Source of the DNA: Chryseobacterium gleum
GTDB lineage: Bacteria > Bacteroidota > Bacteroidia > Flavobacteriales_F > PHOS-HE28
Assembly (NCBI GenBank): GCA_945872795.1
Contig: CAMCAZ010000039.1
Coordinates: 1 to 35,255 of the forward strand
Length of the DNA stretch: 35,255 bases
Reading direction: 5' to 3'
The position numbers and the translations under genes are program-made. The notes beneath the pieces are model-generated. The model was not told where the DNA came from and ran no database searches. It saw nothing but the letters and a program-made list of their open reading frames with translations. Positions 4,614 through 22,700 of this stretch are shown here, in pieces. Within the stretch, counting starts at the first letter, position 1. Each line of letters opens with the position of its first letter.

Positions 4614-4829
4614 TGAACCACGGATACACACGGATCAACACGGATGTCCCGAGTGGCGAGGCCTCGCGATCGGGAGACCCGTCGCGCTTTCCTCGGTTCA
4701 CACGCAGCGGACCGTGCGTGACTGAGTCAGCATGCATCGCAGCACCTCAGCACCCCATTGACGAGAGAATGTGCGGTCTGAATGATCAGTGTTCTCCCGG
4801 GGCTTCGGGACGTGTAGATCCGTGGTTCA
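4614..4829. repeat. intergenic element bounded by a 12-bp inverted repeat (copy A)
   Basis: TGAACCACGGAT at 4614-4625 is matched perfectly in inverse by ATCCGTGGTTCA at 4818-4829. The similarity continues inward with two mismatches to about 18 bases. Inside the left end CACGGAT occurs three times at a 10-base period (4619-4645). Next comes an imperfect palindrome, TCCCGA (4647-4652) ... CGAGGCCTCG ... TCGGGA (4670-4675). The right end carries TCCCGGGGCTTCGGGA (4795-4810). No protein is encoded. A related shorter copy lies at 14229-14302. Confidence 0.7.
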
Positions 4830-14228: not shown

Positions 14229-14302
14229 TGAACCACGGACCTGCCGGCCGGCAGGCGGGTACACACGGCTCGAGGCCTCGGGAGGTGTCCATCCGTGGTT
14301 GA
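14229..14302. repeat. intergenic inverted-repeat element (copy B) with a nested palindrome
   Basis: AACCACGGA (14231-14239) is inverted as TCCGTGGTT (14292-14300). Compared with the copy at 4614, the left arm is split after GAACCACGGA by 20 extra bases (14240-14259) and then resumes with TACACACGG. The extra bases contain the 16-base perfect palindrome CCTGCCGGCCGGCAGG, counting from 14240. Further in is CTCGAGGCCTCGGGA (14269-14283), a palindromic core shared with other gene-free stretches here. No protein is encoded. Confidence 0.7.
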
Positions 14303-14364: not shown

Positions 14365-14964
14365 CTACGGCTTCGCTTCTCCCGCCTTGGCGTGGAACTC
14401 CTTCAACCATTCCTTCAGGGGCCGGTCTCCGATGACCAGGTCCTCGATCACCGCCTTGCCATTGAGGACCCGCACCACGGCATAGGCGGGCAGGGGTTCC
14501 TCCGCTTCACCCTCGTCCCACTCGGGCTGCAGCATGCTCTCCGTGGCGGCGCCATCGCCCTCCTGCAGGTAGTAGCGGTCAAAGGGCAGCGCGATGCGTT
14601 CGGCCGTGTCATTGCCCCAGGTCATGAAACTCACCGAGAGATATTCGCCCTGCGCGGGTGCCTCGGTGCTCAGGGCGGTGATGCGCGCAAAGCCCGCACT
14701 GTCCAGGCCCAGCAGGCCGTAAGCGTGGGTGTTGCCGCTGTTACCGACGCCCTCCGCCAGGGGCCAGCTTCCCGACTCCGCCTCGAAGTTCAGGATCACG
14801 TACTCGCCGCGGAAGGGGTCGCGCGGGTCGATGGGCTCCGTGCGGAACTTGTACACGGTGCCGCGCTCCAGCACCCGCTCGTGATCGCGGATCATCCAGG
14901 TCAGGGCGCCCAGTTGTAACAGCACCACCACGGCGAGCAGCACGGCCTTAACGCTCCTGTTCAT
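14365..14964 (-). CDS. GDYXXLXY-family membrane-anchored protein
   Basis: A 199-residue protein with one N-terminal membrane anchor (about residues 7-24) and a domain facing the outside of the inner membrane. RDPFRGEYVILNFE (about residues 48-61) matches the family-defining GDYXXLXY motif with E in place of D. A second conserved block is LPAYAVVRVLNGKAVIEDLVIGDRPL near the C-terminus. Function is not known for the family, which is typically encoded beside DUF2157 proteins. Here its start overlaps the end of the DUF2157 gene by 17 bases, so the two are very likely translated together and may form a complex. Confidence 0.87.
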   Translation of the reverse strand: MNRSVKAVLLAVVVLLQLGALTWMIRDHERVLERGTVYKFRTEPIDPRDPFRGEYVILNFEAESGSWPLAEGVGNSGNTHAYGLLGLDSAGFARITALSTEAPAQGEYLSVSFMTWGNDTAERIALPFDRYYLQEGDGAATESMLQPEWDEGEAEEPLPAYAVVRVLNGKAVIEDLVIGDRPLKEWLKEFHAKAGEAKP

Positions 14965-22394: not shown

Positions 22395-22428
22395 GCCGGA
22401 TGGGGGAGAGCACATGTGCTCGTGCGGC

Positions 22429-22700
22429 CATGTGCTCATGTGCTCATGAAATGCCAGTTCCGACCAGCGTCTACGACTCCCGGCTCAGCGCTCGGGGGAA
22501 GGCTCATGTGAGCATTTGAGCATGTGCTCATGTGCCCATGAAATGCCGCCGCTGATGGGCGTTCTGCGAAACTGCCATGGCTTCACTGACCTGGCCACAG
22601 AATGAGTGCAATGTGTTGAAGTGGAACTCAATGAGCTCAGCATCGCATCTCCATCGGATCGAAGCGCCTCATATCCACATGCTCAAATGCTCACATGAGC
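22429..22700. repeat. CATGTGCTC-rich direct and inverted repeats between pyrG and yidC
   Basis: A 27-base unit beginning CATGTGCTCATGTG and ending CATGAAATGCC occurs at 22429-22455 and again at 22521-22547 with one mismatch. In addition, 22502-22526 is a perfect 25-base inverted copy of 22676-22700. The gap has no credible gene. The inverted pair could fold into a stem with a ~150-base loop at the end of the pyrG transcript. The family looks like an intergenic repeat made of short CATGTG/GAGCA units. Confidence 0.75.

Follow-up and report, generated by a model that had tools for sequence, protein, structure and literature searches.

Short palindromic repeats without genes have been described in several settings. 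According to PMC3733652, some repetitive extragenic palindromes (REPs), gene-less palindromes of 20-40 bp present in many copies, sit inside other palindromes or genes, and the Rickettsia palindromic elements (RPEs) lie within bacterial genes, where they were reported in frame in functional open reading frames (ORFs). The GC clusters of yeast mitochondria, for which the help of a nuclease was proposed (PMC4478555), and the hairpin elements of sponge organelles (PMC2800124) are tiny GC-rich mobile hairpins entering genes, RNA genes and intergenic DNA; short direct repeats are described there for the yeast clusters. Here we report on a 20-base unit, palindromic over most of its length, which interrupts one arm of another small repeat in Chryseobacterium gleum (GCA_945872795.1). 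The stretch analysed, called the window, covers all 35,255 nucleotides of contig 39 of this 3.32-Mb genome (102 contigs). The host repeat and its palindromic guest belong to two nested families of small repeats, and we consider it reasonably probable that the guest entered ancestrally, the interrupted arm being copied thereafter.

Positions 14230-14268 of the window consist of GAACCACGGA, the 20-mer CCTGCCGGCCGGCAGGCGGG (14240-14259) and TACACACGG, while the copy at 4614 reads GAACCACGGATACACACGG with no interruption. A preliminary description of this DNA had claimed that 20 bases holding a perfect palindrome split the left arm of a repeat. The split was borne out, since the 20-mer lies within the element at 14231-14300 and the copy at 4616-4827 is whole; the palindrome is perfect for 16 bases (14240-14255), and the final four bases of the 20-mer, CGGG, fall outside it. 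By chance, 0.02 occurrences of AACCACGGATACACACGG with up to 3 mismatches would be expected in the window; two were found (4616, and 4810 on the minus strand). Genome-wide, and allowing up to 2 mismatches, AACCACGGATNNACACGG occurred at 36 places and its reversed-pattern control at 2. The 16-mer palindrome was found exactly at 2 places in the genome. When up to 3 mismatches were allowed, the 20-mer had 13 distinct places, or 22 rows if both strands and shifted registers are counted, against one control row, so the palindrome is not confined to this locus. Among 29 arms of this genome (36 distinct ACCACGGA strings from the fetched loci minus 7 judged by eye not to be arms), approximately 2 carry the 20-mer and approximately 27 are without it. 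Thus, most arms being uninterrupted, the 20 bases are an insertion, as the preliminary description had proposed, and not a loss elsewhere. The second filled arm is the right arm of a CACGG element at C46:9692, with identical arm position and orientation.

An order-level search returned 45 genomes, all of the same genus. In four of them (G001, G003, G012 and G020) the host element is absent between what reads as the same two genes and a short stretch lies there instead, the intergenic sequence being strongly diverged; the presence of the element therefore varies between species. The interrupted-arm pattern, with up to 3 mismatches, had matches in 8 of 39 genus genomes. The filled site CCACGGA^, judged by an exact CCACGGA preceding the unit, was seen at 14 sites in five genomes: two in the genome of the window (G000), six in G004, four in G051 and one each in G049 and G003. 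These were drawn from 75 surveyed sites that include loci fetched for holding arms, so that 14/75 is a biased share, and the places found by exact patterns are unbiased. Thirteen of the 14 are of the CCTGCCGGCCGGCAGGCGGG type and all 13 have one orientation (two-sided p 0.0002 assuming independence, which the copies do not have). G051 has its own version, CCTGCCGGCCGGTAGGCGGG. Of 42 distinct exact-pattern places, 6 of the 10 with the G version of the palindrome lie in arms, compared with 0 of the 32 with the T version. The copies of G004 share their outer flanks, like copies of a single element.

Since the same arm site is filled at 14 places and 13 of these share one orientation, an already interrupted arm was probably copied. 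On this reading one or a few insertions of the guest into a CACGG arm, at some point in the ancestry of the genus, would have been followed by copying of the filled arm through movement of the host element or through exchange between inverted arms, a route that would leave the guest in either the left or the right arm but always in one orientation. The earlier notion of one unit having entered another repeat thus holds as far as nesting is concerned, two dispersed families being present and one interrupting the other; the event need not have happened at this locus, as the same arm site is filled at 14 places. The number of families had been put too low at two, because a third palindrome, CCCGAGGCCTCGGG, is found inside the same arms.

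The palindrome family extends well beyond these arms, being present across the phylum and outside it. CCTGCCKGCCGGCAGG was present in 17 of 45 genus genomes, and its sister CCTGCCTGCCGGCAGGCAGG, searched exactly, in 27 of 395 Bacteroidota genomes and 26 of 171 genera; the reversed controls gave 0 in both cases. In viral contigs CCTGCCTGCCGGCAGGCAGG was found in 33 stretches against 0 for a palindrome of equal composition, and the composite (interrupted) arm was found in none. The genome-wide check which the preliminary description had called for came out positive: units interrupt continuous sequence in an ORF6N-like gene of two species, in tRNA genes or fragments and, on contig 22, in a third repeat. 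In the ORF6N-like gene (C10) the unit shifts the reading frame, with the same site and frame shift in G046, and further places in the genome of the window are a carB-like fragment on C1 and the repeat on C22. The labels ORF6N-like, carB-like and mutase-like come from translations read by eye. Other repeats are struck at fixed points, namely CAGCGAGG^AATC in G067, GGTCGTTC^CTCC in G035 and GCCAAAGA^TTTAGC in G353 and G191. The literature search found no paper on the palindrome strings, or on nested palindromes together with tRNA genes for this case.

Two side observations concern the same family. On C22 (L035, 1501 and 1635) it interrupts a repeat with the pattern GACCCCGGAGCGGGTCGCAGA. The palindrome also stands at the same codon, in different species, of what look like short pieces of conserved genes (carB-like, mutase-like) (L036 1501 on C1 of G000; L129 288 on C13 of G046; L080, L081 and L141).

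In tRNA-His and tRNA-Lys of G003 the 20-mer stands exactly at the boundary of T-stem and T-loop. When it is omitted, gap-free alignments of the two sequences to the tRNAs of other genomes span 72 and 73 bases, with identities of up to 94% (His) and 97% (Lys); the assembly is 73% complete and second copies in G003 are possible. The tRNA-Asp sequences of G046 and G041 are interrupted at this same boundary by forms of 20 and 19 bases. The search covered the best 150 matches, so that the interrupted tRNAs are at least those named. The exact T-loop form was found at 11 loci in named species genomes. The isolate Salinimicrobium sediminis is represented, as are records that bear the names Patescibacteria, Omnitrophota and Neomarinimicrobiota; ARAGORN did not call a tRNA at the Patescibacteria and Neomarinimicrobiota loci. 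An ORF with a GIY-YIG domain (PF01541, E 1.3e-15) was within reach at 7 of the 11 (L232-L235, L237, L238, L240), and also near tRNA-Leu loci of the genus (L127, L133, L136) and tRNA-Arg loci (L244, L254). Typically the GIY-YIG ORF lies between a tRNA-Leu fragment holding the palindrome and an intact tRNA-Leu. With the 20-mer omitted, the two tRNA-Leu fragments of S. sediminis match the intact gene at 37/37 and 30/31 bases, and those of L232, L234 and L235 match at 100% over 36, 32 and 28 bases.

It may also be recorded that the GIY-YIG ORF lies near an intact tRNA (Leu or Arg) at L127, L133, L136, L232-L235, L237, L244 and L254, and that in the tRNA-Leu loci compared it is the partial tRNA copy which bears the palindrome.

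A broader proposal, which we put forward tentatively and with more doubt than confidence, is that the self-complementary 20-bp sequence would be a gene-less mobile unit found across bacterial phyla and inserting without target duplication at purine^pyrimidine steps, whether in tRNA genes (at the T-stem/T-loop point), in arms of elements with a nuclease fold or in further repeats, and that the interrupted tRNA genes might still work, the hairpin being tolerated in the RNA or removed from it.

Insertion of the guest is clean, with no target duplication, and in most cases the junction is a purine^pyrimidine step (A^T, A^C). At 52 unique genus sites, which include copied arms and are not all independent, position -1 was A in 66% and G in 27% (both strands counted), the junctions being A^T at 23 and A^C at 19, and no direct repeat was present at 48. 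At 51 phylum sites A stood at -1 in 48% and 38 had no direct repeat. How the palindrome itself moves is the part of the mechanism of which we are least sure, and we infer it from circumstantial evidence: nuclease-assisted capture is preferred because insertions are seen repeatedly in tRNA fragments next to GIY-YIG genes and in arms of a nuclease-fold element. The gene-less guest would be captured when a nuclease opens the target, and would then be joined in by the cell. Insertion into unpaired loops, an idea that came from the tRNA sites and the hairpin-like repeats of G035, was rejected as a rule. Folding gave an unpaired probability of 0.463 against a null of 0.437 at the 52 sites and 0.480 against 0.457 at the 51 sites, with 25% and 27% of random draws, respectively, at least as high.

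Several observations weigh against the interpretation given here. The element at this very locus without the 20-mer was not found, and the insertion event itself is unseen here. The arm site of G003 holds a different version, CCTGCCTACCGGCAGGCAGG, which fits repeated insertion as well as changed copying. Direct repeats of 1-7 bases occur at 13 of the 51 phylum sites. No mover or transposase was found for the palindrome: genes of Y1 transposases (PF01797, in 33 of 45 genomes) do not track it, since G003 (an assembly that is 73% complete), G041 and G021 have the palindrome without a match, and the Y1 transposase was rejected as the mover. A GIY-YIG match was obtained in 45 of 45 genomes, and its presence was accordingly discarded as a marker; in an unselected sample few palindromes lay near a GIY-YIG gene.

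The shared arm position could also reflect target choice in place of copying, the palindrome entering CACGG arms again and again with GGA^T as a strong target. The purine^pyrimidine preference with A^T as the commonest junction, the differing version in G003 and the fixed points in the other repeats (G067, G035, G353, G191) all agree with such a hot-spot. We nevertheless judge it unlikely, since the 13 main-version sites have a single orientation in spite of the symmetric core, the arms hold G-version places and none of the T version, and the copies of G004 have their outer flanks in common.

Copying of an arm interrupted in the past remains our preferred reading also when two further explanations are weighed. 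That the element originally included the 20 bases, and that its other copies have since lost them, agrees with an interrupted arm that is shared by five genomes and hence old; it is very improbable in view of the many uninterrupted arms in the genome of the window, on account of which loss was rejected, and of the palindrome family interrupting unrelated sequences with clean empty sites, which speak against loss as an explanation for the family in general. An artefact of assembly or library would be conceivable as most of the genomes compared are metagenome assemblies and several sites lie within duplicated sequence. However, the isolate S. sediminis CGMCC 1.12641 holds two copies, several copies are found in G004 (an assembly of 4 contigs) and in G059 (a 3.86-Mb contig), the versions differ by substitutions, and two species have the unit at one and the same gene site, so this explanation, too, has a very small probability.

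When compared with the described systems, the 20-mer belongs with the short gene-less palindromic repeats, as a variant of them. It is like REPs, which are tagged by GTAG or CGTC and associated with RAYT transposases, in being a short, gene-less, many-copy palindrome and in its nesting in palindromes and genes. It differs from them in that the flanking bases at about 60 places in the genus and 50 in the phylum show no GTAG or CGTC end tag, and in that the RAYT (Y1) genes fail to track it in the 45 genomes. With RPEs it shares the insertion of a palindromic repeat in bacterial genes; RPEs have a different length, and the 20-mer shifts the frame in both species in the one gene examined. Nearest in behaviour are the mitochondrial GC clusters and hairpin elements, which it also resembles in presence or absence at matching sites, here the interrupted tRNA-His, tRNA-Lys and tRNA-Leu fragments against intact copies. 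It differs from the yeast clusters in lacking direct repeats at most genus and phylum sites, and from both in being bacterial and not organellar.

The host element is MITE-like (miniature inverted-repeat transposable element), as judged from its inverted ends and a longer, gene-bearing relative. Its arms are composed of CACGG words. Paired copies are short and gene-less with the inverted ends AACCACGGA / ATCCGTGGTT, and at C54:276-751 two inverted AACCACGGATNNACACGG-type arms enclose a 140-amino-acid GxxExxY gene (TIGR04256 E 1.6e-36, PF13366 E 5e-34). The difference from MITEs is that the gene of the relative encodes a nuclease fold and not a transposase. On C17 an arm precedes another GxxExxY gene, truncated by the contig end. 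PF13366 matches were found in 39 of 44 genus genomes. Thirty GxxExxY loci were fetched, 7 of which were dropped from the test for short flanks; inverted repeats were present on both sides of the gene in 21 of the remaining 23 and in 0 of the 46 displaced controls. Across the 30 loci a single weak match to the CACGG arm itself was obtained, the arms there being mostly short iterated words of the CACAGAG, CGCCAAG, CACAGATG and CGCAACG types. Because the same arms flank the GxxExxY gene at C54 and 21 of 23 loci have inverted arms, the host appears to be a shortened relative of GxxExxY (nuclease-fold) gene-carrying elements, and we infer that the short CACGG elements descend, without the gene, from a GxxExxY element having such arms. 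The literature search found no paper on GxxExxY, PF13366/TIGR04256 or arm-string elements as such; PMC8934634 has a single mention of GxxExxY, as a domain close to a reverse transcriptase. As a separate observation, the inverted arms seen among the loci L202-L231 and L010 (21 of 23 tested) are built from an iterated word particular to each locus.

Table 1. Coordinates of the host element, its parts and neighbours in the window, and of the interrupted tRNAs in other genomes
Feature	Position	Strand	Remark
Host element, 70 bp, inverted ends AACCACGGA / ATCCGTGGTT	14231..14300	+	between convergent genes
Left arm, outer part, AACCACGGA	14231..14239	+	sequence read
Inserted 20-mer CCTGCCGGCCGGCAGGCGGG	14240..14259	+	perfect palindrome 14240-14255
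Left arm resumed, TACACACGG	14260..14268	+	sequence read
Third palindromic unit, remnant (CTCGAGGCCTCGGGAG; elsewhere TCCCGAGGCCTCGGGAG)	14269..14284	+	recurs in arms of same kind
Right arm, ATCCGTGGTT	14291..14300	-	closes host element
Second host-element copy, 212 bp, arms uninterrupted	4616..4827	+	
Upstream flanking ORF, 115 amino acids	13853..14200	+	
Downstream flanking gene, GDYXXLXY protein	14365..14964	-	PF14345, E 4.9e-24
Interrupted tRNA-His, tRNA-Lys, tRNA-Asp	L083 1480-1571 and 1655-1747 (G003); L146 1503-1594 (G046); L145 1580-1671 (G041)		19-20-base palindromic insertion

The two genes flanking the 70-bp element, the 115-amino-acid ORF and the GDYXXLXY gene, converge (Table 1). 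The third palindrome CCCGAGGCCTCGGG recurs in CACGG arms, frequently at the second of these words (window 14269-14284; L022 1501, L031 1501, L008 1366, L025 1397). Elsewhere in the window, 22402-22547 and 22502-22700 contain a 54-nucleotide direct repeat, 80% identical, and a perfect 25-nucleotide inverted repeat; the repeats at 22402-22700 are rich in GCTCATGTG-like words and represent another repeat family. No known RNA family was detected in the window at the gathering threshold.

The 20-mer may belong to the smallest mobile DNA sequences. Few of the mobile units so far described from bacteria would be as small; nested copies, empty sites and tRNA insertions are its concrete events, and it raises the question of how a tRNA-His or tRNA-Lys gene tolerates a 20-base hairpin beside the T-loop. 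The host side of the finding ties the GxxExxY family to iteron-like inverted-arm elements that supply many of the dispersed repeats in such genomes.
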